Assembly: GCF_035917975.1 (NCBI RefSeq)
Contig: NZ_CP109130.1
Coordinates: 5,456,001-5,520,000 of the forward strand
DNA: 64,000 bases
Direction of reading: 5' to 3'
From: Streptosporangium sp. NBC_01756
GTDB taxonomy: Bacteria > Actinomycetota > Actinomycetes > Streptosporangiales > Streptosporangiaceae
Every line of letters begins with the position of its first letter. Positions within the stretch are counted from its first letter, which is position 1. This document shows positions 2,480 through 19,721 of this stretch, piece by piece. A program made the translations under genes and the position numbers. The notes below the pieces were generated by a model, which saw nothing but the letters and a program-made list of their open reading frames with translations, ran no database searches and was not told where the DNA came from.

Positions 2480-2504
2480 TTTGTTCGGATGGTAACTAAA
2501 CTAA
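2480..2504. promoter_or_regulatory. Predicted ROK operator, copy 1 (GH42 promoter)
   Basis: TTTGTT (2480-2485), 13 bases, then AACTAA (2499-2504): an inverted repeat of TTWGTT. The same pattern with exactly the same spacing occurs at 2582-2606 and 19697-19721, always in front of carbohydrate genes or the ROK regulator. This copy sits between the GH42 start codon and its promoter, so a bound repressor would block transcription. Confidence 0.65.
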
Positions 2505-2581
2505 TTATCCATGGAACGCGGGGCCGGCTCAAGGGCGGCCACCGGTGCTCCCGCTCCGCGGCCGGGACTGAGGCGTTGACG

Positions 2582-2606
2582 TTTGTTGGTTTGGACGTAA
2601 AACTAA
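2582..2606. promoter_or_regulatory. Predicted ROK operator, copy 2 (GH31 and transporter promoter)
   Basis: TTTGTT (2582-2587), 13 bases, AACTAA (2601-2606), identical in both half-sites and spacing to the copy at 2480. It lies 35 bp before the GH31 start and so probably controls the plus-strand run of GH31, sugar-binding protein, two permeases and GH3. Confidence 0.65.
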
Positions 2607-2640
2607 CTCCGAACCGGATGCCTGGAGTGCTGGAGCCCGC

Positions 2641-4929
2641 ATGCCTTACCGTCCCCCGCTGATCGCGCATGAGTACTTCGTCGCGGACCCTCCGGAGCTT
2701 CCCGTCCGCTCGCGCGGCGAGATGGGTCCGTCGGCGCTCACCTCGGCCGAACTGGTGGCGGCCGAGGCGGCCGGAGTGACGCTCAAGGCCGTGACCTCGG
2801 CCGAGGAGACCCTCGTGGTCCAGGTGGGCGTGGCGGGCGAGGGGGTGATCCGGGTCCGGCTCGGCCAGGACGTGGACGCGCGGACCCGCTCGGCCGCCGC
2901 GATCTCCATGGTCACTCCGGGCGCCTTCGCCGGGGCCCGGGTGGAGACGGGCGACGGCACGGTCCTGCTCGACGCGGGCTCGCTCCGCGCGGAGATCACC
3001 CTGGCGCCCTGGCACCTGCGGTTCACCGACGCGGCCGGGGCGACCCTGCTGGAACAGGACAGGGGCCACACCGACATCAGCGGCCGGCTGCGCACCCTGC
3101 CGTTCGGCCGCTCCAGCTCCGGCGGCGCAGTGATCGGCTACCACGAGAGCTTCGCCGCCCCCGCCGACGAGGCGTTCACCGGGTTCGGCGAGTCGTTCAC
3201 CCCGCTGGACAAGCGCGGCCAGCGGCCGGTCATGTGGAACTTCGACGCCTTCGGCGCCGAGTCGCAGCGGGCCTACAAGAACGTGCCCTTCTACCTGTCC
3301 AGCAGGGGATACGGCGTGCTGGTGGACAGCGGGACGCCGGTGGAGTTCGACGTCTGCCAGTCCACGCACAGCTGCGTGCAGATCGTGGTGCCGGACGACC
3401 TGATCGACTACTACGTGATCGCCGGGCCCACCCCGCCGGAGGTGCTCGACCGGTTCGACCTGCTCACCTGCCGCCCGCTGCTCCCGCCGAAGTGGGCGTT
3501 CGGCACCTGGATCTCCTCGGGGTTCTTCGTGGACACCCAGGAGCGGGTGATGGCGCGGGCGCGGAAGATCAGGGAGCGGGGCATCCCGTGCGACGTGCTG
3601 CATCTGGACACCTACTGGCAGACCGACGGGCACTGGTCCGACCTGCGGTGGGACGCCGTCAACTTCCCCGACCCCGGAGGGATGCTGGCGGAGCTGGACG
3701 AGATGGGCTTCAAGGTCTGCCTGTGGATGAACCCGTACATCTCCCGACTGAGTCCGGCGTTCCCGTCCGCCGCACAAGACGGATATTTCTTGAAAAAGCC
3801 TGATGGTGAGGTCTATGTGGCCGACGCCTGGCACGGCTCCTACCCGGCCTGCGGAATCGTCGACTTCACCAACCCCGCCGCGGTGACCTGGTTCCAGGGG
3901 CTGCTCCGGCCGCTGCTGGAGCAGGGGGTGCAGGTCTTCAAGACCGACTTCGCCGAGGGCGTGCCGCACGACGCCGTCGCCTTCAACGGCATGACCGGCA
4001 CCGACCTGCACAACGTCTACACCCTGCTGTTCAACGACGTCGTCGCCGAGGTGACCAGGGAGGTGGCCGGGCACGGCATGGTCTGGGCGCGCTCGTCGTT
4101 CCTCGGCGGGCAGCGCCACTCGGCGCAGTGGAGCGGCGACACCTACACCAGCTATCCGGCGATGGGCAGCACGCTGCGCGGCGGGCTGGCGCACGGCCTG
4201 TCCGGCATCCCGTTCTGGAGCCACGACGCGGGCGGGTTCACCGGCCGCCCCACCGACGACCTGTATGTCCGCTGGACCCAGTTCGGCGCGCTGTCCCCGC
4301 TGCTGCGCCTGCACGGCACCACCAGCCGTGAGCCGTGGGAGTTCCCCGAGGTCGAGGCCCAGGCCGTCGAGGCGCTGAAGCTGCGATACCGGCTCATGCC
4401 GTACCTCTACACGGCGGCGGTGCAGGCCGCGCGGACCGGCGCGCCGATGATGCGGGCCCTGTGCGTCGATCACCCCGACGACCCGGTGGCCTGGCAGGCC
4501 GACCTGGAGTACCTCCTCGGCCGCGACCTGCTGGTGGCCCCGATGACCTCACCCGAGGGCGTCCGGAAGGTCTACCTGCCGGCCGGAGACTGGGTGGACC
4601 ACTGGAGCGGCGAGGTGCTGGCCGGCGGCCGGTACGTCACGGTCTCCACCCCGCTGGACCGCATCCCGCTGTTCGTACGGCGCGGCGCGCTCATCCCCGT
4701 CCTGGCCGAGCCGGGCGGAACCGTCGGAGACGGGCCGTTCGGAGAGATCACGCTGGTCGGCTACGGCGTGGGCGAGAGCCGTACCGTCGTCTCCGATCTC
4801 GACGGGGACACCACGATCACCGCCGTCCCCGACGGGGACGGGCTGCGGGTGACCGTCTCGGGGAACGCGCGGATCACGGGCGTGGAGCTGGTGGGGGCCG
4901 GCGTCCCGGTCGTCATCACCACCATCTAG
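2641..4929 (+). CDS. GH31 alpha-xylosidase-like glycoside hydrolase
   Basis: The 762-residue protein has the domain order of YicI-type GH31 enzymes: N-terminal beta-sandwich, (beta/alpha)8 barrel, and C-terminal beta domains. The nucleophile is Asp436 in FKTDFAEG, where YicI-type alpha-xylosidases have KTDFGE, unlike the WxDMNE of most alpha-glucosidases. The acid/base is Asp500 in WSGDTY, 64 residues on (66 in E. coli YicI). There is no signal peptide, so it acts on imported substrate, probably releasing alpha-xylose from the non-reducing end. The ATG follows CTGGAG. The sugar-binding protein gene starts 9 bases after its stop. An alpha-glucosidase specificity cannot be excluded from sequence alone. 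Confidence 0.9.
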   Translation: MPYRPPLIAHEYFVADPPELPVRSRGEMGPSALTSAELVAAEAAGVTLKAVTSAEETLVVQVGVAGEGVIRVRLGQDVDARTRSAAAISMVTPGAFAGARVETGDGTVLLDAGSLRAEITLAPWHLRFTDAAGATLLEQDRGHTDISGRLRTLPFGRSSSGGAVIGYHESFAAPADEAFTGFGESFTPLDKRGQRPVMWNFDAFGAESQRAYKNVPFYLSSRGYGVLVDSGTPVEFDVCQSTHSCVQIVVPDDLIDYYVIAGPTPPEVLDRFDLLTCRPLLPPKWAFGTWISSGFFVDTQERVMARARKIRERGIPCDVLHLDTYWQTDGHWSDLRWDAVNFPDPGGMLAELDEMGFKVCLWMNPYISRLSPAFPSAAQDGYFLKKPDGEVYVADAWHGSYPACGIVDFTNPAAVTWFQGLLRPLLEQGVQVFKTDFAEGVPHDAVAFNGMTGTDLHNVYTLLFNDVVAEVTREVAGHGMVWARSSFLGGQRHSAQWSGDTYTSYPAMGSTLRGGLAHGLSGIPFWSHDAGGFTGRPTDDLYVRWTQFGALSPLLRLHGTTSREPWEFPEVEAQAVEALKLRYRLMPYLYTAAVQAARTGAPMMRALCVDHPDDPVAWQADLEYLLGRDLLVAPMTSPEGVRKVYLPAGDWVDHWSGEVLAGGRYVTVSTPLDRIPLFVRRGALIPVLAEPGGTVGDGPFGEITLVGYGVGESRTVVSDLDGDTTITAVPDGDGLRVTVSGNARITGVELVGAGVPVVITTI

Positions 4930-4938
4930 GAGACAACC

Positions 4939-6243
4939 ATGTTCAAGATGAGAACGGGCGCGGCCGTGGCGGCCCTGCTCGTGGCCCTGGCCGCCTGCGG
5001 GAGCACCGAGCAGGCCGCGGACAAGCCCGCCGCCCAGGGCCCCCGCGTCCTGAAGCTCTGGCACTACGAGGGCGCAGACAGCGCGATGGGCAAGGCCTGG
5101 GCCGAGGCGGTCAAGCAGTTCGAGGCCTCCCATCCAGGGGTGAAGGTCACGTTCGAGGAGAAGGCGTTCGAGCAGATCCGCCAGTCCGCGGGCATGATCC
5201 TCAACTCCGACGAGGCTCCGGACGTGATGGAGTACAACAAGGGCAACGCCACCGCCGGGCTGCTGTCCAAGCAGGGCCTGCTGACCGACCTGTCGGCCGA
5301 GGCGGCCGAGCGCGGCTGGGACAAGCTGCTCAGCCCCTCGCTCCAGACCACCGCGAAGTATGACGAGCGCGGTGTGATGGGCGGCGACAAGTGGTTCGGC
5401 ATCCCGAACTACGCCGAGTACGTGATGGTCTACTACAACAAGGACGCGTTCTCCAAGCAGGGCATCGAGGTGCCCACGACCTACGACGAGTTCACCGCGG
5501 CGCTGGACACGTTCGCCAGGGCCGGGATCACCCCGCTCGCCGTCGGCGGCGCCGAGTATCCGGCGCAGCAGATCCTCTACCAGCTCGCGCTGAGCAAGGC
5601 GCAGCGGCCGTGGGTCGACGCGCTCCAGCTCTACAAGGGCAAGGTCGACTTCTCCGGGCCGGAGTTCCGCTACGCGGCCGACACCTTCGCCGACTGGGTG
5701 AAGAAGGGCTACATCGGCAAGGACTCGGCCGGGATCAAGGCCGAGGACATGGGCGTGTCCTTCATCGGCGGCAAGTATCCGATCGTGGTGTCGGGGAGCT
5801 GGTGGTACGGCCGGTTCGTCAGCGACATCAAGGACTTCGAGTGGGGCTCGTTCCTCTGGCCGGGCAACGCGATGAGCGCCGGATCCAGCGGCAACCTCTG
5901 GGTCGTCCCCGAGAACGCCAAGAACAAGGACCTCGCCTACGACTTCATCGACATCACGATGAAGAAGGAGATCCAGAACCTGCTCGGCAACTCCGGCGGC
6001 ATCCCGGTGGCGGCCGACGCGTCGGCCATCACCGACGCCAAGAGCAAGGAGCTGATCGAGAACTTCACCAAGCTCTCGGGCTCCGACGGGCTCGCCTTCT
6101 ACCCGGACTGGCCGGCGCCGGGCTACTACGACGTGCTGGTCTCCGGCGTGCAGAACCTGATCAACGGCACCAAGACGTCCGCCCAGGTCCTGGACGAGAT
6201 CGCCGGGCCGTACAACGAGAACCTCGCCGACATCGGCAACTGA
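4939..6243 (+). CDS. ABC sugar importer, substrate-binding lipoprotein
   Basis: 434 residues of the family 1 extracellular solute-binding type. The lipoprotein signal ends in LAAC with Cys20 as lipidation site, followed by a Gln/Ala/Asp-rich linker. The mature part begins VLKLWHYEG and includes YYNKDAF and SGSWWYGRF segments typical of oligosaccharide-binding proteins. AGGAGA precedes the ATG. It sits directly after the GH31 gene and is followed by two permeases, so it should capture the oligosaccharide that the GH31 and GH42 enzymes trim inside the cell. Confidence 0.92.
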   Translation: MFKMRTGAAVAALLVALAACGSTEQAADKPAAQGPRVLKLWHYEGADSAMGKAWAEAVKQFEASHPGVKVTFEEKAFEQIRQSAGMILNSDEAPDVMEYNKGNATAGLLSKQGLLTDLSAEAAERGWDKLLSPSLQTTAKYDERGVMGGDKWFGIPNYAEYVMVYYNKDAFSKQGIEVPTTYDEFTAALDTFARAGITPLAVGGAEYPAQQILYQLALSKAQRPWVDALQLYKGKVDFSGPEFRYAADTFADWVKKGYIGKDSAGIKAEDMGVSFIGGKYPIVVSGSWWYGRFVSDIKDFEWGSFLWPGNAMSAGSSGNLWVVPENAKNKDLAYDFIDITMKKEIQNLLGNSGGIPVAADASAITDAKSKELIENFTKLSGSDGLAFYPDWPAPGYYDVLVSGVQNLINGTKTSAQVLDEIAGPYNENLADIGN

Positions 6244-6291
6244 GGCGACAGCGGCAACTGAGGCAACTGACGCAACTGACGCAACCCCATC

Positions 6292-6319
6292 GCGGCCCGC
6301 GCCTTCGGGTGCGGGCCGC
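6292..6319 (+). terminator. Strong hairpin between binding protein and permeases
   Basis: A 12-bp stem GCGGCCCGCGCC / GGTGCGGGCCGC closes on a TTCG tetraloop, with no T-run. It lies between the binding-protein stop and the permease ribosome site. In importer operons such stems often act as partial terminators or 3'-end stabilisers that keep binding protein above permease. About four degenerate copies of a GCAACTGA unit precede it (6237-6285). Confidence 0.6.
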
Positions 6320-6341
6320 GCGCACACAGAGAGGTCCTCCG

Positions 6342-7220
6342 TTGAAGAGGTCTCGCAGCGGCGGTTACCGGGTGTTCCTGCTGCCGAGCGCCGTGCTGTT
6401 CACGGCGGTCATCGTGGTGCCGTTCCTGATGAACGTCGGGATCGGGTTCACCCGCTGGCAGGGGATCGGGGACCCCCGATGGATCGGGCTGGACAACTAC
6501 ACGCGGCTGTTCGCCGACGAGCGGTTCTGGGCCTCCTTCCGCAACAACGCCGCGCTGGTCGTCGCGATGGCGATCGTCCCCACGGCCCTCGGGCTGGTCC
6601 TGTCGGCGACCCTGTTCGACTACGTGGGCAAGAAGTTCGGTCCCCGTACGGCCGGCGCGCTGCGGGCGGCGTACTACCTGCCGCAGGTGCTGCCGGTCGC
6701 GGTCGCCGGGATCGTCTGGGGATGGATCATGCATCCGCGGTTCGGCGCGCTCAACGAGCTGCTCGGGCTGCTGGGCATGGAACCGAGGAACTGGCTCGGC
6801 GACCCGGCCTGGGCGCTGCCGAGCGTGATGGTGATCATGGTGTGGTTCCAGGTCGGCTACCCGGTCGTGATCTTCATGGCCGGGCTGCAGCGGGTCGACC
6901 CGGCCCTGTACGAGGCAGCCGAGATGGACGGGGCGTCGTGGTGGCGGCGGTTCTGGCACATCACGATCCCGCAGATCCGGCCGGAGATCTACGTGGTCCT
7001 GCTGACCTGCACGATCGCCGCGCTGAAGGTCTTCGGGCCCATCTTCGTGCTCACCCGGGGCGGCCCCGGCGGCGCCACCCTCGTGCCGTCCTACTTCAGC
7101 TACCAGAACTTCTTCGAGAAGGCCAACGTCGGGTACGGCTCGGCGATCGCCACCGTGCTCACCCTCCTGATCATCATGGTGACGGCCTTCTTCCTGCGGA
7201 TTCAGGACAGGGAAAAATGA
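6342..7220 (+). CDS. ABC sugar importer permease (first)
   Basis: 292 residues, MalF/UgpA type with six predicted membrane segments. The first segment is at about residues 11-31. The EAA loop that docks the ATPase reads YEAAEMDGASWWRRFWHI. I chose the TTG at 6342 because AGAGAGG lies eight bases upstream and the protein then starts MKRSRSGGYRVFLLPS, as expected for this family; the frame is open far upstream but without permease-like sequence. The next permease overlaps it by four bases (ATGA), so the two subunits are translationally coupled. Confidence 0.88.
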   Translation: MKRSRSGGYRVFLLPSAVLFTAVIVVPFLMNVGIGFTRWQGIGDPRWIGLDNYTRLFADERFWASFRNNAALVVAMAIVPTALGLVLSATLFDYVGKKFGPRTAGALRAAYYLPQVLPVAVAGIVWGWIMHPRFGALNELLGLLGMEPRNWLGDPAWALPSVMVIMVWFQVGYPVVIFMAGLQRVDPALYEAAEMDGASWWRRFWHITIPQIRPEIYVVLLTCTIAALKVFGPIFVLTRGGPGGATLVPSYFSYQNFFEKANVGYGSAIATVLTLLIIMVTAFFLRIQDREK

Positions 7221-8032
7221 TCCGGAAGTACTCGGTCCTGGTCTCGCTGACCGTGCTGGCCGTCGTGATGCTGGTGCCGTTCGCCATCGTCACGCTCAAC
7301 GCGGTCAAGTCCCCGGCGGACTACTCCTCCGGCGGCCCGCTGAGCCTGCCCGGCAGCCTCTACCTCGACGGGATCGTCCAGTTCTGGAACCGCGTCGACT
7401 TCGGCGGCAAGCTCTGGAACAGCCTGCTGATCAGCGGTTCGGTGGCCGTGCTCGCGGTGCTGCTGTCACTGTTCAACGCCTACGCGCTCGGCATCGGCCG
7501 GGTCCGCGGCCGGACCTGGATCCTGGTGGTGTTCCTGGTGGCCAACACGCTGCCGCAGGAGGCGCTGGTCTATCCGCTCTACTACCTGTCCAAGCAGGTC
7601 GGCCTCTACGACACCCGGCTCGGAGTGATCATCATCTTCACGGTGATCCAGAGCGCCTTCGGCACCTACCTGCTCGCCTCGGTGCTCGGCCGGTTCCCGC
7701 ACGAGATCCTGGAGGCCGCGGCCATCGACGGGGCCGGGAAGTGGCGGGCGCTCTGGCGGATCGTGGTGCCGATCAGCAGGCCGACGCTGAGCGTGCTGCT
7801 CGTCTTCTTCTTCATCTGGACCTGGAACGAGTTCTTCCTGCCGCTCGTCTTCCTGATCTCCAACGAGAACCAGACCGTGCCCGTGGCGCTGGGCGTGCTG
7901 CAGGGGGACAAGATGATGGACGCCACGATGTCGAGCGCCTCGGCGCTGCTGGGCATCCTTCCGGCCGTCGTCTTCTTCCTGATCTTCCAGCGGACCCTCA
8001 CCCGGGGGGTGACCGTCGGTGCGATCAAGTGA
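7217..8032 (+). CDS. ABC sugar importer permease (second)
   Basis: 271 residues, MalG/UgpE type with six predicted membrane segments and the EAA loop LEAAAIDGAGKWRALWRI. It ends in GVTVGAIK, the common tail of carbohydrate permeases (G-x-x-x-GA-x-K). Its ATG overlaps the previous stop (ATGA) and GACAGGGA supplies the ribosome site. No ATPase gene follows. As in many actinomycetes, a shared MsiK-type ATPase elsewhere probably powers the importer. Confidence 0.92.
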   Translation: MIRKYSVLVSLTVLAVVMLVPFAIVTLNAVKSPADYSSGGPLSLPGSLYLDGIVQFWNRVDFGGKLWNSLLISGSVAVLAVLLSLFNAYALGIGRVRGRTWILVVFLVANTLPQEALVYPLYYLSKQVGLYDTRLGVIIIFTVIQSAFGTYLLASVLGRFPHEILEAAAIDGAGKWRALWRIVVPISRPTLSVLLVFFFIWTWNEFFLPLVFLISNENQTVPVALGVLQGDKMMDATMSSASALLGILPAVVFFLIFQRTLTRGVTVGAIK

Positions 8033-8111
8033 CCTTTCCCACGGCCCGCCGCGGACGGCGTCCCGCGCATCCTCTGACCCACCCGCGTCGACCCCCTGAC
8101 CTGGAGGCGCA

Positions 8112-11033
8112 ATGTCCTTCCGCAAGCCCCTGGTGGCGGCAGCCGTACTGGCCCTGACCATGGGGTTGTCCGTGGTCCCCGTCCAGGCGGCCGAGACCCT
8201 CCCCTTCCGCGACCCCACCCTGCCGCTGAGCCGGCGCATCGACGACCTGCTCGGCCGCCTCACCCTGGCGGAGAAGATCTCCTGGCTCCACCAGTACCAG
8301 CCGGCGGTGGACCGGCTGGGCATCGGCCTGTTCAAGACCGGTACCGAGGCGCTGCACGGCGTCGCCTGGTCGACCGACATCGACGACGGCGGCAAGGTCG
8401 TGACCGCCCAGGGGACCGTGTTCCCGCAGGCCGTCGGGCTGGCCAGCACCTGGGACCCGGACCTGGTCGAGCAGGTCGGCGCGGCCGTCGGCACCGAGGC
8501 CCGCGGCTACCACGCCGAGAACCCCCGGACCTGGGGCCTGCAGCTGTGGGCGCCGGTGGTCAACCTGCTGCGCGACCCGCGCTGGGGCCGCAACGAGGAG
8601 GGCTACTCCGAGGACCCGCTGCTCACCGGCGCGATCTCCACCGCGTACGGCACCGGCATCCAGGGCGACGACCCCGACCACCTGCGGGCGGCCCCGGTGC
8701 TCAAGCACTTCCTGGCCAACAACAACGAGGTCCACCGGGACACCACCTCCTCCAGCCTGCGGCCCCGCGTCCTCAACGAGTACGACGTCCCGGCCTTCAG
8801 AACGGCCATCGCGGCCGACGCGGCCACCGGTGTCATGACGGCCTACAACCGGATCAACGGCCGGCCCGCTACGGTCACCGACCTCGACTCCACCGTCCGC
8901 ACCTGGACCGACCGGCCGGTGTTCAACGTCACCGATGCCGGCGGCCCCGGCAACCTCACCGGCTCGCAGGCCTACTACGCCACCCAGGCCGAGGCCGCCG
9001 CCGCGACGATCAAGGCGGGGGTCGCGAGCTTCACGGCGAACGACACCAACGCCGCCCCGACGGTGGACTCGGTCAACGCGGCGCTCGCCCAGGGGCTGCT
9101 GACCACGGCCGACATCGACGGCGCCGTCCGCGACATCCTGGGCATCCGGTTCCGGCTGGGCGAGTTCGACCCGGACGGCGGGCCGTACGGGAAGATCACC
9201 AAGGCCGTGGTGGACAGCCCCGAGCACCGCGCGCTGAACCGCCGGACGGCGGCCGAGGCGATGGTCCTGCTCAAGAACGCGGACAAGGCCCTGCCGCTCA
9301 GCCCGGCGAAGAAGGTCGCCGTGGTCGGGCCGCTGGCCGACACCCTCTACACCGACTGGTACTCGGGGAAGCCGACCTACCGGGTCACCCCGCTCGACGG
9401 GATCAGGGAACGCGCGGCCACCACCGCCGCCGAGGGCGTCGACCGGATCGCGCTCAAGGCCGGCGGCAGATACCTCACCGCGGGCACCGGCGCGGGCGCC
9501 GACCTGAAACTGTCGGCGACCACGGCCGGACCGACCGAGCAGTTCGACGTCTTCGACTGGGGCCAGGGCGTCGTCACCCTGCGCAGCGCCGCCAACGGCA
9601 AATACGTCAGCCGCGCCAACTGGTCCACCCTGGCCAACAGCCAGGACCAGCCCACCGGCTGGTTCGTCCAGGAGCAGTTCAAGCTGGAGGCCCAGTCCGA
9701 CGGCACGACGCTGCTGAGGTACGCCGGTTACGAGACCGCCTACGACTGGTTCGGCCCCGACCAGTACGTCACGGCCGCGGCCGACGGCACCCTCGGCCTC
9801 ACCACCGCCGAGGGCGCCACCCGGTTCACCAGGGAGACCGTGCGCAGCGGCGTCGACGAGGCCGTCGCGGCGGCGAAGGACGCCGACGTGGCGGTGGTCG
9901 TGGTCGGCAGCATGCCGTTCATCAACGGCCGCGAGGACCACGACCGGACCGGCACCGGCCTGGCCGAGGGGCAGCAGGCGCTGGTGGAGGCGGTCCGGAA
10001 GGCGAACCCGAACACGGTGGTGGTGCTGGAGAACAGCTATCCGACGACCGTCGACCGGCTCCAGGACAAGATCCCGGCGATCCTGTGGACCACCCACGCC
10101 GGAGCCGAGACCGGCCACGCGCTGGCCGACATCCTGTACGGCGACGCCAACCCGGCCGGCCGCCTCACCCAGACCTGGCCCCGTGCCGGGACCGAGCTCC
10201 CCGACATCCTCGACTACGACATCATCAAGACCGGCGCGACCTACCTGTACGCCAAGGAGCGCCCGCTCTACGCCTTCGGCCACGGGCTGAGCTACACCAC
10301 CTTCGGCTACCAGGGGCTCCGTGTCACCTCTGTCCCCGACGGCTACGAGGTGAGCGTCCGGGTGACCAACACCGGCTCCCGGGCGGGCGACGAGGTCGTC
10401 CAGCTCTACACCCATCAGCACAGCTCCAGGGTGGAGCAGCCGGTCAGGCAGCTCCGCGGCTTCCAGCGGGTCCACCTCGCGCCGGGCGAGTCGAAGGTCG
10501 TGAAGCTCCCGATCAAGACCGCGGACCTGGCCCTGTGGGACGTGACCCGGGGGCGCTTCACGGTGGAGCCCTCGGTCCACGACGTGCTCGTCGGCTCCTC
10601 CTCCGACCGGATCCGCTGGCGGACCACGGTCAAGGTGTCCGGCGAGCGCATCCCCGCCCGCGACCTGACCAGGGTCACCCGCGCGGCCGACTTCGACGAC
10701 TACGCCGGGGTCGAACTGGTCGACGAGACCAAGGTCAGCGGCGACGCGGTCGGCGCCTCGGCGGGCGAGTGGGTCGCCTTCCGGGACGTGGATCTCGGCA
10801 CCGGGATCGCCGGGGTGAAACTCGGGGTCGCGGCCGTCGCCGCCTCGTCCGTCGAGGTCCGCCTCGGCTCCCCGGCCGGGAAGCTCCTCGGCACCGTCCC
10901 GGTGGCCGCCACCGGCGGGATCTACCAGTGGGCCACGGCCACCGCCCCGCTCGCGGGCGCACGCGGCAAGGGCGACCTCTACCTGGTCGTCAAGGGCGAC
11001 CTGCGGATCAGGGACCTCACCCTGACCCGCTGA
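8112..11033 (+). CDS. Secreted GH3 beta-glucosidase/beta-xylosidase with beta-trefoil insert and CBM6-like tail
   Basis: 973 residues. A signal peptide (about residues 1-27, cut near VQAA) precedes a GH3 barrel carrying RDPRWGRNEEGYSEDP (155-170), a motif common in plant-type and fungal beta-xylosidases and related GH3 enzymes. The nucleophile is Asp275 in FNVTDAGGP. The C-terminal alpha/beta domain is interrupted at about 450-565 by a segment with fascin-like beta-trefoil features (VTLRSAANGKYVS). A fibronectin-III-like domain follows, then a CBM6-like domain from about residue 860. The start follows GGAGGCGC. It should hydrolyse oligosaccharides outside the cell, next to the importer. A paralogue with the same architecture but no signal peptide lies at 21212. 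Exact sugar specificity cannot be read from sequence. Confidence 0.9.
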   Translation: MSFRKPLVAAAVLALTMGLSVVPVQAAETLPFRDPTLPLSRRIDDLLGRLTLAEKISWLHQYQPAVDRLGIGLFKTGTEALHGVAWSTDIDDGGKVVTAQGTVFPQAVGLASTWDPDLVEQVGAAVGTEARGYHAENPRTWGLQLWAPVVNLLRDPRWGRNEEGYSEDPLLTGAISTAYGTGIQGDDPDHLRAAPVLKHFLANNNEVHRDTTSSSLRPRVLNEYDVPAFRTAIAADAATGVMTAYNRINGRPATVTDLDSTVRTWTDRPVFNVTDAGGPGNLTGSQAYYATQAEAAAATIKAGVASFTANDTNAAPTVDSVNAALAQGLLTTADIDGAVRDILGIRFRLGEFDPDGGPYGKITKAVVDSPEHRALNRRTAAEAMVLLKNADKALPLSPAKKVAVVGPLADTLYTDWYSGKPTYRVTPLDGIRERAATTAAEGVDRIALKAGGRYLTAGTGAGADLKLSATTAGPTEQFDVFDWGQGVVTLRSAANGKYVSRANWSTLANSQDQPTGWFVQEQFKLEAQSDGTTLLRYAGYETAYDWFGPDQYVTAAADGTLGLTTAEGATRFTRETVRSGVDEAVAAAKDADVAVVVVGSMPFINGREDHDRTGTGLAEGQQALVEAVRKANPNTVVVLENSYPTTVDRLQDKIPAILWTTHAGAETGHALADILYGDANPAGRLTQTWPRAGTELPDILDYDIIKTGATYLYAKERPLYAFGHGLSYTTFGYQGLRVTSVPDGYEVSVRVTNTGSRAGDEVVQLYTHQHSSRVEQPVRQLRGFQRVHLAPGESKVVKLPIKTADLALWDVTRGRFTVEPSVHDVLVGSSSDRIRWRTTVKVSGERIPARDLTRVTRAADFDDYAGVELVDETKVSGDAVGASAGEWVAFRDVDLGTGIAGVKLGVAAVAASSVEVRLGSPAGKLLGTVPVAATGGIYQWATATAPLAGARGKGDLYLVVKGDLRIRDLTLTR

Positions 11034-11122: not shown

Positions 11123-12016
11123 TCAGTCGACGAGGTCGTACCACCGGGGGGTGGCGGCCTTCAGCGGGTCGGGAGCGGGGCCGGCCTCGGGGCCGGGGAT
11201 GACGTAGAGGTCGACGGTGTCGGAGCTGTGGTCGCGGGAGCCGTTGACGATCCAGTCGTCCTTAACCCGGTCCGCGGGGACGGTCTGGTCGAAGGAGCCG
11301 CCATCGGGGGGTGTCCAGAGCAGGCGGTAGCCGACTTTCAACCCTCGCCGGTGCAACTCGGCGCGGACGGTCGCGACCGGCCTGCCGTGAACCGGGTAGC
11401 CGTCCAGGGCCTCCTCCCCCGAGGGATCGTAGACGGGTCCCTCGGCGTAGGGCTCGCCCGGCTTGGCGGGGCGGCCGACTCCGAAGACGACCCGGCCGGG
11501 GAAGTCCGCGGGCATCCAGACCTTGCCGCAGAACGCCGACGCGCAGTGCTCCAGGCGCTGTACGCCTATGCTCCCGTGCCATGTGAAGCCCTCGGGGACG
11601 ATCGGGCCGACCAGTGTGCCCACCTCGTCCGGTGCCGCCGGGATGACCTTCACCGTGACGTTCAGTCCGACCGCGCGGAATGCCTCCTCGAAGCGCCGGC
11701 GGTCGGCCGCGGGGTCGGTGATGGTGACGCTGAAGTGGTCGTCGGTCTTCTTGATGGAGACGGCCGCGTTGGCATACTCGGTCGCCGGCCCGCCGAAGGG
11801 CAGCCCGATCGCCACGGCCACGGCCAGGGCGGTGGCCGTGGCGAGCAGGACGGGCAGCCGGGCCCGCCTCAGCCGGGGGAGCCAGGACGGCCGGCGGTGC
11901 GCGGGCGGGGTCGCGGTGATCTCCTCAAGCAGGTCGTGGACGCCCTGGCTCAGGGCGGGCTCGGCGGATCCGGCGGCGGGGTCGATGGCGGACACCATCC
12001 GGTCGATCTTGCTCAT
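11123..12016 (-). CDS. Single-pass membrane protein coupled to ECF sigma factor (possible anti-sigma)
   Basis: 297 residues. The ATG at 12016 overlaps the sigma-factor stop (ATGA) and follows AGGGGAGA, so the two proteins are translationally coupled. The N-terminal 50 or so residues are cytosolic. One membrane segment (about 53-75, LPVLLATATALAVAVAIGLP) leads to an external domain of about 220 residues. A cytosolic segment, one membrane helix and coupling to an ECF sigma gene make an anti-sigma or sigma-associated sensor role likely. I see no HxxxCxxC zinc anti-sigma motif. The external part contains one close Cys pair (CASAFC) and a segment resembling PASTA-like repeats (GYPVHGRPVATVRAELHRRG), but I do not assign a family. 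Confidence 0.72.
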   Translation of the reverse strand: MSKIDRMVSAIDPAAGSAEPALSQGVHDLLEEITATPPAHRRPSWLPRLRRARLPVLLATATALAVAVAIGLPFGGPATEYANAAVSIKKTDDHFSVTITDPAADRRRFEEAFRAVGLNVTVKVIPAAPDEVGTLVGPIVPEGFTWHGSIGVQRLEHCASAFCGKVWMPADFPGRVVFGVGRPAKPGEPYAEGPVYDPSGEEALDGYPVHGRPVATVRAELHRRGLKVGYRLLWTPPDGGSFDQTVPADRVKDDWIVNGSRDHSSDTVDLYVIPGPEAGPAPDPLKAATPRWYDLVD

Positions 12017-12564
12017 CGGTTCTCTCCCCTCAGTACGGCCGTCACATGGACCTCGTCTGTCGTGTCGAGCAGCCGGGCCAGCCGCCTGCGGGCCCGGTAC
12101 AGGCGGAGCCGGGCGGCGGTACCGCTGCAGCCCAGCACCTTGGCGATCTGCGGCCCGGTCAGCCCCTCCCAGCAGGCCAGTGCGAGCACCTCCCGGTCCG
12201 CCGGAACCAGGCTCGCGAAGGCGGATCGGACGGCGTCGGCCCGTGGATCGGCGGACGCCGTCTCCCGGCCGGCGGTCAGCTCGTCGCGGAGCCGTGAGGC
12301 CAGCGCGGTGCGGCGGGAGTCTCCGCGCCGGTGGTTGGCCAGCACGCGGCGGGCGGTGCCGTACAGCCACAGCAGGGTGGCGTCCCCCTCGGGAACGTCG
12401 TCCAGCCGCCGCCACGCGATGAGGAAGGTCTCCGCGATCACATCGGCGACGTCGTCGGCCGAGTCGGTCCGGCGCAGCGCGTAGCGGTGCATCGCCGGAT
12501 AGCAGGCGAGGTAGAGCGCCTCGAAACGATCGCGCGCGCCGGGGGGCACGCGTGGATCCTGCAC
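12013..12564 (-). CDS. ECF-type RNA polymerase sigma factor
   Basis: 183 residues containing sigma region 2 (about 14-80, with YALRRTDSADDVADVIAETF and the -10-binding helix) and region 4 (about 110-165, with a helix-turn-helix in GLTGPQIAKVLGCSG). It directs RNA polymerase to a dedicated regulon. The GTG start follows AGGAGA. Its leader and first seven codons lie within a 67-bp sequence that recurs almost perfectly at 15467-15533, so the native upstream context has probably been split by recombination. The overlapping downstream membrane protein is the likely regulator. Confidence 0.9.
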   Translation of the reverse strand: MQDPRVPPGARDRFEALYLACYPAMHRYALRRTDSADDVADVIAETFLIAWRRLDDVPEGDATLLWLYGTARRVLANHRRGDSRRTALASRLRDELTAGRETASADPRADAVRSAFASLVPADREVLALACWEGLTGPQIAKVLGCSGTAARLRLYRARRRLARLLDTTDEVHVTAVLRGENR

Positions 12565-12730: not shown

Positions 12731-13279
12731 TCAGGACAAAGATCCCCTGATGCCGGTGATGATCAATTCGAGGCCGCCGTGGAAGGCGCGGTCGCGGCGG
12801 TCTCTGGGCCAGGCGTCGGCGTCGGTTTTGCGGGCCTGTTCCTCGATCGTGTAGCCGTTGACGTAGGCCAGGACCGTGTCCACGGCGACGGCCGCCGTCT
12901 CTGCGGAGACGCCCGCGGCGGCCAGGGCGGCGATGAGGCCGTGGAAGGTGGCGACGGCCTCGCCGCCCGGGTGGTGGAAGGTGGACATGAGGCGCGCGCC
13001 GTCGCGGTGGGCCAGCATGACCTCGCGCATGCCGGTCGCGACGCCGCGCAGCCGCTCGTCCCAGGTGCCGTCAAGGCGTGGGGCGGCGCCGGTGGGCGGG
13101 GTGGCCAGGTGCGCGACCATGGCGTCCAGCAGGGCCTGCTTGCTGGGGTAGTGCCGGTACAGCGCGCCTGCTTGCACGCCGAGCCGGCTCGCCAGGAGCC
13201 GCATGGTGAGACCGTCCAGGCCGGCCTCGTCGAGCAGGTCGATCGCCGCCCGAAGCACCTCGGCGCGCCGCTGACTCAT
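12731..13279 (-). CDS. TetR-family repressor
   Basis: 182 residues. An N-terminal helix-turn-helix (about 21-45, with LTMRLLASRLGVQAGALYRH) is followed by a TetR-class C-terminal domain similar in layout to tetracycline-type repressors. The ATG at 13279 follows a perfect AGGAGG; the open frame upstream of it has no homologous sequence and crosses the operators. It is divergent from a TetX-like monooxygenase, and two overlapping 19-bp palindromes fill the intergenic region. The simplest reading is autorepression plus control of the monooxygenase and hydrolase, relieved by their substrate. Confidence 0.9.
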   Translation of the reverse strand: MSQRRAEVLRAAIDLLDEAGLDGLTMRLLASRLGVQAGALYRHYPSKQALLDAMVAHLATPPTGAAPRLDGTWDERLRGVATGMREVMLAHRDGARLMSTFHHPGGEAVATFHGLIAALAAAGVSAETAAVAVDTVLAYVNGYTIEEQARKTDADAWPRDRRDRAFHGGLELIITGIRGSLS

Positions 13280-13319
13280 TCGAATCCTCCTAGCCGGGGT
13301 TGACAGTTCGGCCTCATGT

Positions 13320-13338
13320 ACGTGAACAATGTACACGT
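13320..13338. promoter_or_regulatory. TetR operator O1
   Basis: ACGTGAACAATGTACACGT is a 19-bp palindrome with two mismatched pairs. It overlaps O2 by four bases and lies between the divergent TetR and monooxygenase starts. Confidence 0.6.
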
Positions 13339-13353
13339 GAACGACGTTCACGT
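13335..13353. promoter_or_regulatory. TetR operator O2
   Basis: ACGTGAACGACGTTCACGT is a perfect 19-bp palindrome around a central A. Its centre is 15 bp from that of O1, so two dimers could bind side by side. A TTGACA at 13300-13305 upstream could be the -35 of the monooxygenase promoter, placing both operators over its -10 region and start site. Confidence 0.68.
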
Positions 13354-13370
13354 AGGAGGCGGAGGACGGG

Positions 13371-14549
13371 ATGACCGAGCAAGGCGTAGGACGGGTACTG
13401 GTGATCGGGGCGGGGCTCGGCGGGCTGACGCTCGCGCATGCGCTCGTCCGAGCAGGCATCGACGTGCGCGTGTACGAGGCGGACGACGGTAGTGGCGAGC
13501 GGTTCCAGGGATACCGGATCGGGCTGGCGTCGCCCGGGATGGAGGCGTTGCGTGCGAGCCTGCCGCAGCGGCTCTACGAGCTGGTCGAGGTCACCAGCGG
13601 CAGTCTGACCGGGCCGGGGTTGCTGTTCGACGAACAGCTCACGGTGCTCAGCCGTGACCTGGAGGGGCCGCCGGCGGAGGCCAGGGCGGTGGACCGGCAG
13701 GTGCTGCGGCGGATCCTGCTCGGTGAGCTGGGGGACCGGGTCGCGCACGGCAGGCGGCTGGCGGGTTTCGCGGAGGAGCCAGGCGGGACCGTGACCGCCC
13801 GCTTCGCCGACGGCACGCAGGCCACGGGTGAGGTTCTGGTCGGCGCCGACGGCGGGAACTCCGTGGTGCGGCGGCATCTGGTGCCCGAAGTCGGGCTCGT
13901 CGACTCGGATCTGTGCGGGGCGATGGGGCGTACCCCCGTCACCGACCGCTTCCTGCGGCTGGTGCCGGGGCGCGGCACGATGGTGCGGGGGCCCGGGATC
14001 ACGCTGATGCTGGGACGGATGCAGTTCGGCAGGGAGCCGTCCGAGGCCGCCGCCGAGCTCGCTCCCGGGCTGGACATGCCGTACCGCGACAGCTATGTGC
14101 GGTGGGTGCTGATGGTGCCGCCGGAGCATCCGGCGGCCACCGACCCGGGACGCGGCCAACAGGACGCGCGCGAGCTGGTGCTGGACCTCATCGACGGCTG
14201 GCATCCCGACCTGCGGGATCTGGTGCGCTCGGCCGACATGAGCGCCGTCGGCCGGTCCAAGATCTACGACAGGCCGATGCCGTCATGGCCGGTGGGCCGG
14301 GTCACGCTGCTCGGCGACGCCGCGCACCTGACGCTGGCCAGCGGCGGGAACGGCGCGAGCACCGCGATGCAGGATGCCGTGCGGTTGTGCGCGCGGCTGG
14401 CCGCGGTCAATCGAGGCGAACGGGACCTGACCTCGGCGCTGGGGGAGTATCGGGACGACCTGCTGGAGCGCGGGAACGCGGCGGTGGAGTTCGGCAAGCA
14501 GGCGCTGAAGAGGTTCATCCCGGCCACAGCCGCAGGCGACGCGCGATGA
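13371..14549 (+). CDS. FAD-dependent aromatic/TetX-like monooxygenase
   Basis: 392 residues with the class A flavoprotein monooxygenase signature: GxGxxG FAD motif (VIGAGLGGLT, residues 10-19), the DG-type motif VGADGGNS at about 160, and GDAAH at about 315 near the FAD pyrophosphate. It should hydroxylate an aromatic or polyketide-like compound with NAD(P)H and O2. The ATG follows GGAGGCGGAGGACGGG. The downstream hydrolase is adjacent or overlapping and the divergent TetR is the likely regulator, suggesting a small detoxification or drug-inactivation cassette. Substrate unknown. Confidence 0.88.
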   Translation: MTEQGVGRVLVIGAGLGGLTLAHALVRAGIDVRVYEADDGSGERFQGYRIGLASPGMEALRASLPQRLYELVEVTSGSLTGPGLLFDEQLTVLSRDLEGPPAEARAVDRQVLRRILLGELGDRVAHGRRLAGFAEEPGGTVTARFADGTQATGEVLVGADGGNSVVRRHLVPEVGLVDSDLCGAMGRTPVTDRFLRLVPGRGTMVRGPGITLMLGRMQFGREPSEAAAELAPGLDMPYRDSYVRWVLMVPPEHPAATDPGRGQQDARELVLDLIDGWHPDLRDLVRSADMSAVGRSKIYDRPMPSWPVGRVTLLGDAAHLTLASGGNGASTAMQDAVRLCARLAAVNRGERDLTSALGEYRDDLLERGNAAVEFGKQALKRFIPATAAGDAR

Positions 14550-14590
14550 AGGATTCGCCGCGTACTCAGCACACCGACGGAGGGAGCACC

Positions 14591-15439: not shown

Positions 15440-15466
15440 CAGGCACGGCGTCGACGGGTGCCGGAT

Positions 15467-15533: not shown

Positions 15534-15631
15534 ACGGCTCACGTTCGCCGCTCATGAGGCGCAAGCCGTACCGGACGGTGAAGAACCGAGCTTTTGGCGT
15601 TGAGATACCTCTCGACCAGCTGTTCGACGCG

Positions 15632-15637
15632 TACGCT
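15632..15637 (+). promoter_or_regulatory. Leaderless -10 element of antitoxin gene
   Basis: TACGCT, six bases, then ATG. This TANNNT-N6-ATG layout puts the transcript start on the start codon, a common arrangement in actinobacteria. No Shine-Dalgarno sequence is present. Confidence 0.5.
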
Positions 15638-15643
15638 GTCGGC

Positions 15644-15964: not shown

Positions 15965-15970
15965 ACGCAC

Positions 15971-15996
15971 GCCGCACCGAGAGACCGGGGTGTGGC
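15971..15996. terminator. Possible weak terminator hairpin
   Basis: GCCGCACC and GGTGTGGC pair (one G-T) around a ten-base loop between the convergent antitoxin and permease genes. There is no T-run. Confidence 0.35.
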
Positions 15997-16026
15997 ATTT
16001 CCCGGCGGACGGTCCGGCCGGCGTGC

Positions 16027-16926
16027 TCAGCCCTTGACGGCGCCGATGATGACTCCCTTGGTGAAGTGCCGCTGGACGAAGGGGTAGACGAACAGCACCG
16101 GGAGCAGCGCGACCACGACGATCGCCATCTGGATGGCCAGGCTGGGGGGCAGCGCCTGGCCGACGACCGTGACGTTGCCGGTCTGGCCGGAGAACAGGGA
16201 CCGGCCCTGGAGCACGTACTGCCGGAGTACGACCTGCAGCGGCCACTTGGCGTTGTCGTTCAGGTAGAGGACGGCGTTGAAGAACGAGTTCCAGTAGCCG
16301 ACCGCGTAGAACAGGCCGATGACGGCCGTGACGCCCTTCGACATGGGCAGCACGATCTTCCTCAGGATGTGGAACTCGCTCGCCCCGTCGATCCGCGCGC
16401 TGTCGCTCACCTCTTCGGGGATGTTCATGAAGAACGCCCGCATGACCACCAGGTTGAACGCGGTGACCGCGCCCGGCAGGATCAGCGACCAGTAGGTGTC
16501 GATCAACCCCAGGGAGCTGACCAGCAGGTAGTTCGGAATGAGCCCGGGGCCGAACAGGAACGTCAGCAGGATGAGGAACAACATCGGCTTGTGCAGCAGC
16601 GAACCCGGCCGGGACAGGCCGTAGGCGGCCAGCACCGTGACGGTCAGGCTGATGGCCGTGCCGACGAGGGTGACGCCGAGACTGACCATGACCGACCTGG
16701 TCACCACGCCGCCGGAGAAAAGCTCGGCGTACGCGGCGAAGGAGAGCTCGCCGGGCACGGTGACCAGGCCGCCGGCCTCCGACACGGTCTCCTGGGTGGA
16801 GAGGCTGGTCAGCACGACCATGTAGATCGGGAAGAGGACGCACGCCACGATGAGCGTGAGGACGATTCCTTTGACGAGGCCGCCGGCACGGCTCGGCCGC
16901 TCGGCCCAGGCGGGTGAGATAGTCAT
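16027..16926 (-). CDS. ABC importer permease, YtcP/LplC-like
   Basis: 299 residues with six predicted membrane segments and the EAA loop SARIDGASEFHILRKIVLP. It ends HFTKGVIIGAVKG, the typical tail of the YtcP/LplC group, which works with large LplA-type binding proteins on complex oligosaccharides. The ATG at 16926 overlaps the previous permease stop (ATGA). Third gene of the minus-strand importer operon that starts behind the ROK operator at 19697. Confidence 0.92.
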   Translation of the reverse strand: MTISPAWAERPSRAGGLVKGIVLTLIVACVLFPIYMVVLTSLSTQETVSEAGGLVTVPGELSFAAYAELFSGGVVTRSVMVSLGVTLVGTAISLTVTVLAAYGLSRPGSLLHKPMLFLILLTFLFGPGLIPNYLLVSSLGLIDTYWSLILPGAVTAFNLVVMRAFFMNIPEEVSDSARIDGASEFHILRKIVLPMSKGVTAVIGLFYAVGYWNSFFNAVLYLNDNAKWPLQVVLRQYVLQGRSLFSGQTGNVTVVGQALPPSLAIQMAIVVVALLPVLFVYPFVQRHFTKGVIIGAVKG

Positions 16927-17930
16927 GATCGTTTGTAGATTCCCTGCTCGCCGAATCGGTGGGCGACCTTGTTGGCCACGAGGATCAGGATCAGTCCGAC
17001 CAGGCCCTTGACCAGCCCGGCCGCCGCGCCGTAGCTCCACTCGCCGGTCAGCAGCGTGCGCCAGTAGACGAAGGTGTCCAGCACCTCGGCGGCGTCCCTG
17101 CCGACCGCGTCGCGTTGCAGGAAGAACTGCTCGAAGCCGACGTTCAGCGCCTCGCCCAGGCGCAGGATCAGCAGCAGGATGATCACCGGACGCAGGCCGG
17201 GCAGCGTGATGTGCCAGAGCCGCCGCCAGCGTGAGGCGCCGTCCACCGCCGCCGCCTCGTAGAGGTTCTGGTTGATGGCCGCCAGCGCGGCCAGGAAGAT
17301 GATCGTGCCCCAGCCCGCGTCCTTCCAGATCGTCTCCGCGGTCACCAGCACGAGGAAGGTGTCGGGGTTGGTCATGAGGTCGAAGCCGCTGTACCCGTGG
17401 TCCCGCAGCGTCTGGGAGAGCAGTCCGGCACCGCCGAACATCTGCTGGAACAGGGTGACGACCAGCACCCACGAGAAGAAGTGCGGCATGTAGACGATGC
17501 CCTGGATGAACAGGCGCAGGCGGGGCCGTACCACGCTGTCGAGGAGGACGGCCAGCATGATCGGCACGGGGAAGTAGAAGACCAGCTGGAACGTCGTGAT
17601 CGACAGCGTGTTGAGCGTCGCGTCCCAGAAGCTCTCGTCGAGCATGAGCCACTGGAAGTTGGACAGGCCGACCCAGGCGCTGTCGACGAAGCCGACGTAG
17701 GGCGAGTAGTCCTGGAAGGCGATGACGTTGCCGAGCAGCGGCACGTAGTGGAAGACGACCAGCAGGCCGATCGCGGGCAGCGTCATCAGCAGGAGCTGCC
17801 AGTCGCGTCTCAGCCGGGCCGGGAGCGGCCCGCGCGAACTGCGGCTTGTCCTCGCGCCCCTTTTGCCGTCATCCTTGGTGGTGCCGGTGCCGGCGGGTGA
17901 GGTCAGGTCACCCGCCGGCCCGGTGTTCAC
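16923..17930 (-). CDS. ABC importer permease, LplB-like
   Basis: About 335 residues, LplB type: a charged, Ser/Arg-rich N-terminus of 40 residues, then six membrane segments and the EAA loop YEAAAVDGASRWRRLWHI. I favour the GTG at 17930 because AGGGA lies just upstream. A GTG at 17945 would overlap the binding-protein stop and add five residues. Translation is coupled to both neighbours. No ATPase gene is present in this operon either. Confidence 0.88.
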   Translation of the reverse strand: MNTGPAGDLTSPAGTGTTKDDGKRGARTSRSSRGPLPARLRRDWQLLLMTLPAIGLLVVFHYVPLLGNVIAFQDYSPYVGFVDSAWVGLSNFQWLMLDESFWDATLNTLSITTFQLVFYFPVPIMLAVLLDSVVRPRLRLFIQGIVYMPHFFSWVLVVTLFQQMFGGAGLLSQTLRDHGYSGFDLMTNPDTFLVLVTAETIWKDAGWGTIIFLAALAAINQNLYEAAAVDGASRWRRLWHITLPGLRPVIILLLILRLGEALNVGFEQFFLQRDAVGRDAAEVLDTFVYWRTLLTGEWSYGAAAGLVKGLVGLILILVANKVAHRFGEQGIYKRS

Positions 17931-17937
17931 GGAATCC

Positions 17938-19608
17938 CTAAGCACGGCCGTTGTCCCGCAGGACCTTCAGGTAGAAGTCCCGGGCCTCGTCGCCGCCGTC
18001 CCGCCGCCACTCGGTGGCGATCTGCTTGGCGTCGCTGACGGGGCGGCGACCGCGCATGATGTCGGTGAACTTGTCCTCGGTGGGGACCTGCAGGCCGGAG
18101 TACTTCGAGGGCCGCTGGACCCGGATCCCGTCGAACGGGGTCTTCTCGATGTGCGGGAAACCGGCGTTCTGCCACTCCACGTTGGCCTTGACCGCCTCGG
18201 GATAGATCCAGTCGACGTAGAGCGGGCGCCCGCCGAGGAAGATGTAGGTCTGGGCGACCTCCTTGCGGCCGAGGTCGGTGGCCTGCGGGACGTTGTGCGC
18301 GTCGCGTTCGAAGTGCTTGCCCTCCACGCCGAAGGTCGCCAGCTCGTACTCCTTGGTCCCGTACGGCGCCGCGCACCAGTTGAGGATGGAGAGGATCTCC
18401 TCCACCTTCTCCTTGGGCTGCCCCTTCCTGATGAAGGTGAAGATGCCCGCCGCCGTGTTGTGGTACATGAGCGGCTTGCCGCCGTCGTGGGCGAACAACG
18501 GGAAGACGCCGATGTCGAAGTCGGGGTCCTTGCTCCGGTGCTGCTGGAGGAGCTCCTTCCAGCCGCCGAGCCCGTCCCGGTAGACCGTGATCTGCCCGGC
18601 TCCGATCAGCTCCTTCTCGTTGGCGCCCTTGCTGCCGGCGACGCTCGGGTGGATCAGCTCCTCTTCGAAGAGTCTGCGCATGAACGCCAGCATCTGCTCG
18701 TACTCGGGGGTCTCGTACTTGTGGACGAGCTTTCCCCCCTCATAGCGCCACTCCTGCGGGATCCGGAAGATCGGCCAGACCATCTCGTGGATGTCGCCGA
18801 ACGCCCAGCGCTTCGCCTTGGGGTCGGTGATCTCCTTGCCCAGCTGGTACAGCTCCTCGGCGTTCGTGGGGGTGGCGTTCCAGCCGTTCTTGTCGAACAG
18901 GTCCTTGCGGTAGAGCAGGCCGTAGGGGTAGGGCTCGGTGGGGAACGGCACCGCCATCAGCTTGCCGTTCCAGACCGACCACTCCCACGCGGCAGTCGGC
19001 AGGTTGGCCAGCAGGGCGTACGGCTTGACCTTGTCACCCTGCAGGTAGGGGGTGAGGTCCTCGAAGGCCTGATCGACGGCGGTGTTGAAGTCCGCCATCT
19101 TGTCGATCTCCCAGCTCGGGATGACCATGATTTCCGGGATGTCCCCGGAGGCGAGCCGGGCGATCGCCTTGTCGACGTAGACCATGCCGTCGGTGATCTG
19201 GAACTCCACGGTCGCGCCGATGTCGGCGTTGACAGCCTGGAAGTAGGAGTTGTCCGCCAGACCGGGCGGCACCGGTCCCCACAGCGGTGTCATCGCCTTG
19301 TAGGTCCCGCCCTTGCCCGCCTTCTGGGTCAGTGCGGCGGCCGGGGCGGCGGGATAGGTGGTGAAGCCGCCGCTGATGTCGGGCACCCCGGGCAGGGTGG
19401 AGACCGTGCCGGGAAGATCCGGCTTGACGCCGGGGAAGGCCGTGTAGGTGGGGGTCAGCGACGTCAGCTTCTCCGCGGCGGCGGCGGTGGCCCCGCCACC
19501 GCCGGGCCGGGGGCCGCTGGGGGTGGAGCACGCGCTGAGCAGGCCGCCGCCGGCGGCCATGGCGGCGCTGAGCCCCACCAGGCTGAGAAATCCGCGGCGG
19601 CTGGTCAT
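17938..19608 (-). CDS. ABC importer binding lipoprotein, LplA-like, Tat-exported
   Basis: 556 residues, longer than usual binding proteins but normal for the LplA group. The ATG at 19608 (GGAGA upstream) gives SRRGFL, a twin-arginine motif, then a lipobox LLSAC with Cys27 as lipid anchor, so it is probably folded before export. The mature chain has family features such as YGLLYRKDLFDKNGW and VFPLFAHDGG. An in-frame TTG at 19716 would start inside the operator and destroy the signal peptide, so I reject it. It should feed the two permeases downstream. Confidence 0.92.
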   Translation of the reverse strand: MTSRRGFLSLVGLSAAMAAGGGLLSACSTPSGPRPGGGGATAAAAEKLTSLTPTYTAFPGVKPDLPGTVSTLPGVPDISGGFTTYPAAPAAALTQKAGKGGTYKAMTPLWGPVPPGLADNSYFQAVNADIGATVEFQITDGMVYVDKAIARLASGDIPEIMVIPSWEIDKMADFNTAVDQAFEDLTPYLQGDKVKPYALLANLPTAAWEWSVWNGKLMAVPFPTEPYPYGLLYRKDLFDKNGWNATPTNAEELYQLGKEITDPKAKRWAFGDIHEMVWPIFRIPQEWRYEGGKLVHKYETPEYEQMLAFMRRLFEEELIHPSVAGSKGANEKELIGAGQITVYRDGLGGWKELLQQHRSKDPDFDIGVFPLFAHDGGKPLMYHNTAAGIFTFIRKGQPKEKVEEILSILNWCAAPYGTKEYELATFGVEGKHFERDAHNVPQATDLGRKEVAQTYIFLGGRPLYVDWIYPEAVKANVEWQNAGFPHIEKTPFDGIRVQRPSKYSGLQVPTEDKFTDIMRGRRPVSDAKQIATEWRRDGGDEARDFYLKVLRDNGRA

Positions 19609-19696
19609 CGCGTCTCCGGGGGGATGGTTCACGACGCGTTCCCTTCGTTGGTCAGGACGGATCGGGGGTGTCGGCGGAGAGGGCTCCGGGGTAGAA

Positions 19697-19721
19697 TTAG
19701 TTCGTCTTTCGACCAAACAAA
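19697..19721. promoter_or_regulatory. Predicted ROK operator, copy 3
   Basis: TTAGTT (19697-19702), 13 bases, AACAAA (19716-19721). It is the reverse-complement orientation of the two copies near 2500 with identical half-sites and spacing. It lies between the divergent LplA-like importer operon and the ROK gene and would control both, including autoregulation. Confidence 0.65.

Follow-up and report, generated by a model that had tools for sequence, protein, structure and literature searches.

Three copies of a 25-bp inverted repeat in two distant sugar operons of Streptosporangium sp. NBC_01756 are probably the operators through which a single ROK-family repressor controls the uptake and degradation of xyloglucan oligosaccharides, as judged from sequence comparison. 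The window, i.e., the whole stretch of 64,000 nucleotides that was analyzed, contains the following sites and genes of the two operons.

2480..2504, + strand: operator O1, TTTGTTCGGATGGTAACTAAACTAA, before the GH42 gene, ~9 bp from its GTG start
2582..2606, + strand: operator O2, TTTGTTGGTTTGGACGTAAAACTAA, 34 bp ahead of the GH31 start
19697..19721, − strand: operator O3, TTTGTTTGGTCGAAAGACGAACTAA, in the intergenic region of the divergent LplA and ROK genes
569..2470, − strand: GH42 beta-galactosidase (PF02449, E 1.2e-134; beta-galactosidases in the PDB)
2641..4929, + strand: GH31, YicI-type, probable alpha-xylosidase (PF01055; best PDB matches YicI)
4939..6243, + strand: solute-binding protein, importer 1 (PF01547, PF13416; sugar-binding proteins in the PDB)
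6243..7220, + strand: ABC permease 1, importer 1 (PF00528; start uncertain)
7217..8032, + strand: ABC permease 2, importer 1 (PF00528 in the same frame; start chosen by us)
8112..11033, + strand: GH3 with CBM6 (signal-peptide-like N-terminus, by our reading)
16027..16926, − strand: LplC-type permease, importer 2 (PF00528)
16923..17945, − strand: LplB-type permease, importer 2 (PF00528)
17938..19608, − strand: LplA-type solute-binding lipoprotein, importer 2 (weak NCBIfam and PDB binding-protein matches)
19826..21049, + strand: ROK-family regulator with N-terminal helix-turn-helix, presumed repressor (PF00480 at residues 96-394; MarR_2 and HTH_IclR at 29-71)
21170..23998, + strand: GH3 with CBM6, following ROK in the same direction (no evident signal peptide, by our reading)

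We propose that the ROK protein encoded at 19826-21049 recognizes the three sites as its operators and, in the absence of inducer, would repress four putative units: GH42; GH31-importer 1-GH3; importer 2 (LplABC); and ROK-GH3. Bound to the intergenic region shared by the LplA and ROK genes, the repressor would block both divergent units. The inducer would be a sugar set free from xyloglucan oligosaccharides after their import, such as isoprimeverose, xylose, or a xyloglucan fragment; on binding to the ROK domain, it would cause the protein to leave its operators.

Three copies of a rare inverted repeat

In a scan of the window, TTTGTT-N13-AACTAA was found exactly at 2480-2504 (+), 2582-2606 (+), and 19697-19721 (−). 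With up to two mismatches allowed, the sole extra matches in the window were the same three sites on the opposite strand, and thus each site is an imperfect inverted repeat. A preceding sequence-only reading had placed the sites at 2480, 2582, and, reversed, 19697, about 17 kb apart and in front of GH42, GH31/importer, and LplA-importer/ROK genes; coordinates, spacing, and distance are all correct, and the gene scan recovered all three gene contexts. Its description of the 25 bp holds for the identical half-sites and spacing, whereas its view that all 13 inner bases differ does not, because G is common to the three sites at positions 8 and 12. A tally of distinct sites, 22 from ROK regions and 9 from GH31, likewise shows G at position 8 throughout. 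The half-site orientation is constant in the same sites (TTTGTT on the left, AACTAA on the right); the search admitted W at positions 3 and 23 and fixed the remaining half-site positions.

The motif is exceptionally rare. A first-order Markov model predicts ~1e-5 exact matches per window, and 100 dinucleotide shuffles yielded a mean of 0.03 matches per window at up to two mismatches. In the single-contig genome of 9,002,924 bases, the relaxed pattern TTWGTT-N13-AACWAA occurs at these three places only, compared with 0 for the reversed control; hence, the whole-genome scan for unrelated matches that had been suggested as a check returned three sites in 9.0 Mb, all at the named promoters. Allowing one mismatch genome-wide added one place (229492) vs. 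5 control places, i.e., noise level, and a search of the same genome with the composite promoter-operator at three mismatches retrieved the GH31 promoter only (control, 1 per strand). Neither of these searches for a wider regulon in this genome recovered anything further.

Gene content and probable substrate

The GH31 protein scores 584 bits against the NCBIfam alpha-xylosidase model, below the cut-off of 606, and contains the active-site stretch KTDFAE. The N-terminus of the GH3 protein encoded at 8112..11033 suggests that this enzyme is probably secreted. A Pfam search with the LplA-type protein (17938..19608) gave no family. Between the two operons lie genes for a TetR regulator, an FAD oxidoreductase, and a hydrolase, with no evident link to them, as well as a 430-aa frame without a Pfam family (11123-12415, − strand). 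Elsewhere in the window, an FtsK/SpoIIIE-type protein of 1526 aa (29282-33862, − strand), with a sub-threshold Yop-YscD_cpl match, may be a type VII secretion ATPase.

An ABC importer together with GH42, GH31, and GH3 enzymes is encoded behind shared putative operators. The GH42 and GH3 families are poly-specific. The nearest NCBIfam model for GH3 is a beta-xylosidase, which it matches with 413 bits, far short of the cut-off of 1250. A genuine ROK regulon dedicated to another sugar, e.g., galacto-, gluco-, or xylan-derived oligosaccharides, would fit these matches, and it would also fit the behavior of the GH74 gene of the same genome. This gene (G000:C1:6788469-6790676, L105), which encodes a xyloglucanase relative, lies 1.3 Mb from the window, and its upstream region contains no operator; the TTAGTT-N8-AAACTA found there, followed by TTGACG, was discounted because its spacing differs. 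The secreted xyloglucanase therefore appears to stand outside the regulon in this genome. We nevertheless regard another sugar as unlikely, given that the GH31 is closest to the YicI alpha-xylosidase and that the importer, GH42, GH31, and GH3 make up the set described for Ruminiclostridium cellulolyticum, in which an ABC importer and the cytosolic enzymes Gal42A, Xyl31A, and Glu3A act on xyloglucan oligosaccharides (PMC8576529). This match makes xyloglucan fragments the likely signal.

Sites in related genomes point in the same direction. Among the sites listed, one precedes a GH74 gene in G051, on a contig other than that of ROK, and the closest solved relatives of its product are xyloglucanases. 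Two more, again among those listed, precede GH35 genes, in G139 on the same contig as ROK, at a distance of 307 kb, and in G065 on a different contig. In G119 and G097, the listed sites include one before an LplABC-GH42 cluster on a contig other than that of ROK. Other sites in ROK-bearing relatives have no evident link to the pathway: two in G065 lie at the start of TnpB-like (OrfB_IS605) genes (L088:6339 and L090:5879), and those in L095 (G051) lie at a pectate-lyase-like gene and a binding-protein/VWA gene. The TnpB-gene sites may be copies carried by the element and are probably a coincidence; L094 in G139 would be the same case, judging from its identical 25 bases.

The ROK protein and its association with the site

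The protein encoded next to O3 combines a ROK domain (PF00480) with an N-terminal helix-turn-helix, the organization of ROK-family transcription factors, and can be aligned along almost all of its sequence with 1z05, a ROK-family regulator, and with Mlc. The ROK zinc motif, GHx(n)CxCGxxGCxE, is retained, with GHIQLDPLGAECRCGRLGCLE aligned to GHTQVDPYGKRCYCGNHGCLE of Mlc.

Of 150 genomes of the bacterial family, 57 carry a ROK orthologue, defined by at least 55% identity. The site precedes ROK in 30 of the 30 best ROK loci of relatives and in 43 of 47 named orthologues (71-92% identity). The latter come from Streptosporangium, Nonomuraea, Planobispora, Planomonospora, Planotetraspora, Thermocatellispora, Sphaerimonospora, Spongiactinospora, and Microtetraspora, all nine being genera of Streptosporangiaceae, and from one [Actinomadura] parvosata record. 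None of the four orthologues that lack the site (L136, L143-L145) has an LplA match next to it, and the same is true of seven ROK orthologues that keep the site. Overall, the site is present in 52 of the 57 ROK-bearing genomes vs. 20 of the 93 without an orthologue (p ~1e-17, a value that is only a guide because related genomes are counted as independent), and in the 5 ROK-bearing genomes that have no site, the GH31 is missing as well. The family sample contains 144 sites in 72 of 150 genomes, compared with 4 control matches.

The target genes yield a consistent picture. GH31 orthologues were fetched by protein alone, to avoid choosing loci by the motif, and the site lies upstream of GH31 in all 30 loci so obtained (48 genomes with a match; control, 0). 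Of the 150 family genomes, 46 encode a GH31 that is at least 65% identical, a count that leaves out two 48% matches (G032 and G082), and every one of the 46 has both the site and the ROK gene. The search upstream of orthologous clusters that the sequence-only reading had called for thus found the motif at ROK and GH31 alike. The association is looser for the other targets: among 30 GH42 loci, a strict site is present within 400 bp in 10, a one-mismatch site in 5, a two-mismatch site in 2, and none in 13. Eight of the 10 strict loci have a site of their own, 9-12 bp before the matched start, and 2 have only the site shared with GH31. Two of the 13 site-less loci (L264 and L265) are part of an LplABC-GH42 cluster with the site at LplA. 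Across the 20 loci L065-L084, importer 1 comes after GH31 in 15 and is missing in 5, all from genus g33; G123 has only a fragment of it, and none was found in G005. In the latter genome (L087:11196-16399), a LacI gene, an importer, and ADP-ribosylglycohydrolase genes adjoin GH31 in its stead, so that a cluster of a different sugar type took the place of importer 1. Another variant is seen in L085 (G142:C1:4115001-4135000), where the ROK is 96% identical and its operator is kept, with no GH31 match at E 1e-200 and with GH42 and GH3 as fragments only; the regulon seems to be decaying there.

Beyond the named orthologues, the ROK homologues of Glycomyces (50-53% identity) are accompanied by a more symmetric TTAGTT-N13-AACTAA, within 400 bp in 16 of 19 cases and further upstream in 3. 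The Glycomyces loci (L151-L157, L159-L166, L174, L177, L178, and L183) carry a nearly constant TTAGTTCGGCTATTCGATAAACTAA ~250-650 bp upstream of the match. For the homologues of Nocardiopsis, Streptomonospora, and Acrocarpospora (44-52% identity), an exact site was found within 400 bp upstream in 0 of 12, a count that leaves out L176, where the sequence ends at the gene, and four have a two-mismatch site.

These data bear on whether another regulator, be it a ROK paralogue or a member of a different family, binds the three sites and the neighboring ROK is a bystander. The genome of strain NBC_01756 has 5 ROK matches at E<1e-40, the neighboring ROK included, and homologues with ~50% identity adjoin similar sites in other genomes, which leaves some room for such a regulator. 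Against it, G123 has ROK paralogues with 45-46% identity, yet only two sites among those listed, located at the orthologue and at GH31. The regulator genes within the cluster also differ among three genomes of the genus: among the Pfam-scanned frames between the two operons of the window, TetR is the sole other regulator gene, the corresponding interval in G123 holds ABATE/CGNR-type and PadR genes, plus an ECF sigma factor beyond GH31, and that in G005 a LacI gene. Of the regulators encoded in the cluster, ROK is the sole one common to the three. The TetR gene (12731-13459) was rejected as the regulator: a search of 70 loci of relatives, only a few of which span the interval, gave no match to it at E 1e-20, and two spanning loci, L086 and L087, hold other regulator genes there. 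A bystander role for the neighboring ROK is accordingly quite improbable, and it very likely acts as the repressor through the three predicted operators. That one ROK repressor runs both importers and the enzymes, which had been put forward as probable, is supported by the rarity of the site, its association with ROK and GH31, and the distant targets in relatives.

Position of the operators in the promoters

The following promoter elements were assigned around O1 and O2.

2576..2581, + strand: TTGACG, adjoining O2 without a gap, presumed GH31 −35
2599-2604, + strand: AAAACT, presumed GH31 −10, inside O2 after a 17-bp spacer (our reading)
2504..2532, − strand: promoter-like TTGAGC-17-GATAAT for GH42 (generic promoter scan)

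In this arrangement, O2 is presumably wedged into the GH31 core promoter, between the −35 and the presumed −10, although the generic promoter scan called the GH42 promoter only and did not call that of GH31. The arrangement is conserved: the bases directly before the GH31-locus operator are TTGACG or TTGACC in 28 of 30 loci and TTGATT in the other 2. The same composite, TTGACG-TTTGTT-N13-AACTAA, is read at the GH35 and GH74 promoters of relatives, and TTGACS-TTWGTT-N13-AACWAA was found in 16 of the 394 genomes of a class-wide sample, all 16 belonging to the same family as strain NBC_01756. O1 abuts the −10-like hexamer GATAAT and would cover the region where GH42 transcription starts, next to the ribosome-binding site; GGATAA stands immediately before the operator in each of the 8 GH42 loci that have a site of their own. 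Given these positions at GH31 and GH42, and that of O3 between LplA and ROK, a bound repressor would block RNA polymerase. A ROK protein that activates, rather than represses, some of the promoters is a very remote prospect, because a location immediately behind the −35-like hexamer in all 30 GH31 loci, or 9-12 bp before the GH42 start, suits blocking. Finally, promoters are rich in A and T, and a −10-like word overlaps one of the half-sites, but an origin of the sites as chance matches of AT-rich words has a negligible probability, being ruled out by the shuffles, the Markov estimate, the rarity in the genome, and the presence of the site in all 30 ROK and all 30 GH31 loci examined, even though these loci share ancestry.

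Relationship to known regulatory systems

The xyl operator of Bacillus subtilis is printed as TTAGTTTGTTTGGGCAACAAACTAA (PMC12034463), and a xylA operator is given for XylR of Anaerocellum bescii (PMC12285236); by our check, TTAGTTTGTTTGGGCAACAAACTAA and the A. bescii xylA operator both fit TTWGTT-N13-AACWAA exactly, which assigns the operator of the window to the known XylR/ROK class. As in those systems, a 25-bp inverted repeat of this pattern lies before the gene of a ROK-family regulator and before its presumed targets. Unlike in those systems, the repeat of the window is looser, with the outer six bases and G8 constant, and asymmetric (TTTGTT/AACTAA), and none of the three genome sites lies at xylose isomerase or xylulokinase genes, in contrast to the XylR xylose regulon. 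The ROK of the window resembles the PDB chain of XylR only weakly (E 1.3e-14). The predicted XylR regulons of Firmicutes, with autoregulatory sites, reach the uptake and degradation of alpha- and beta-xylosides (PMC2873477), a precedent for alpha-xyloside use under a ROK regulator that lowers the novelty of the present case. Those regulons are, however, centered on xylose isomerase and kinase, belong to another phylum, and, in the available portion of that article, come with no mention of a GH42/LplABC set.

Among actinobacteria, CsnR, a ROK repressor of Streptomyces with a predicted regulon in Streptosporangium roseum (PMC6097792, PMC4856308), similarly has palindromic boxes, both at its own gene and at a gene for polysaccharide degradation, but differs in its operator (GGTAGGAAACTTTCCTATC within the printed site) and its substrate, chitosan. 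As for other regulators of xyloglucan use, R. cellulolyticum relies on activation by the two-component system XygS/XygR (PMC8576529), whereas the one-component ROK of the window presumably represses, and in Thermotoga maritima, GloR and CelR are the predicted regulators of a xyloglucan-oligosaccharide importer locus (PMC3750489), GloR being a LacI-family protein, with its effector given as unknown in that article, vs. a ROK in the window. Searches of open-licence articles turned up no actinobacterial regulator of xyloglucan use and no ROK regulator tied to xyloglucan.

The system, very likely a XylR-type ROK regulon, is an ordinary kind of bacterial regulation with clean evidence. We consider it reasonably likely that Streptosporangiaceae possess a dedicated ROK repressor that senses xyloglucan oligosaccharides and acts at a composite promoter-operator in which TTGACG is fused to TTTGTT-N13-AACTAA. 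With this analysis, two importers and four glycosidases receive a presumed regulator, an operator, and a probable substrate, and the range of XylR-type operators now takes in what is probably the use of xyloglucan by actinobacteria. The motif is of help in predicting genes of this kind in related genomes, where it pointed to GH74 and GH35. If the proposed mechanism is correct, much of the xyloglucan regulon would be readable by pattern across genomes, and the ROK protein would represent a one-component, repressor-based alternative to the clostridial two-component control.
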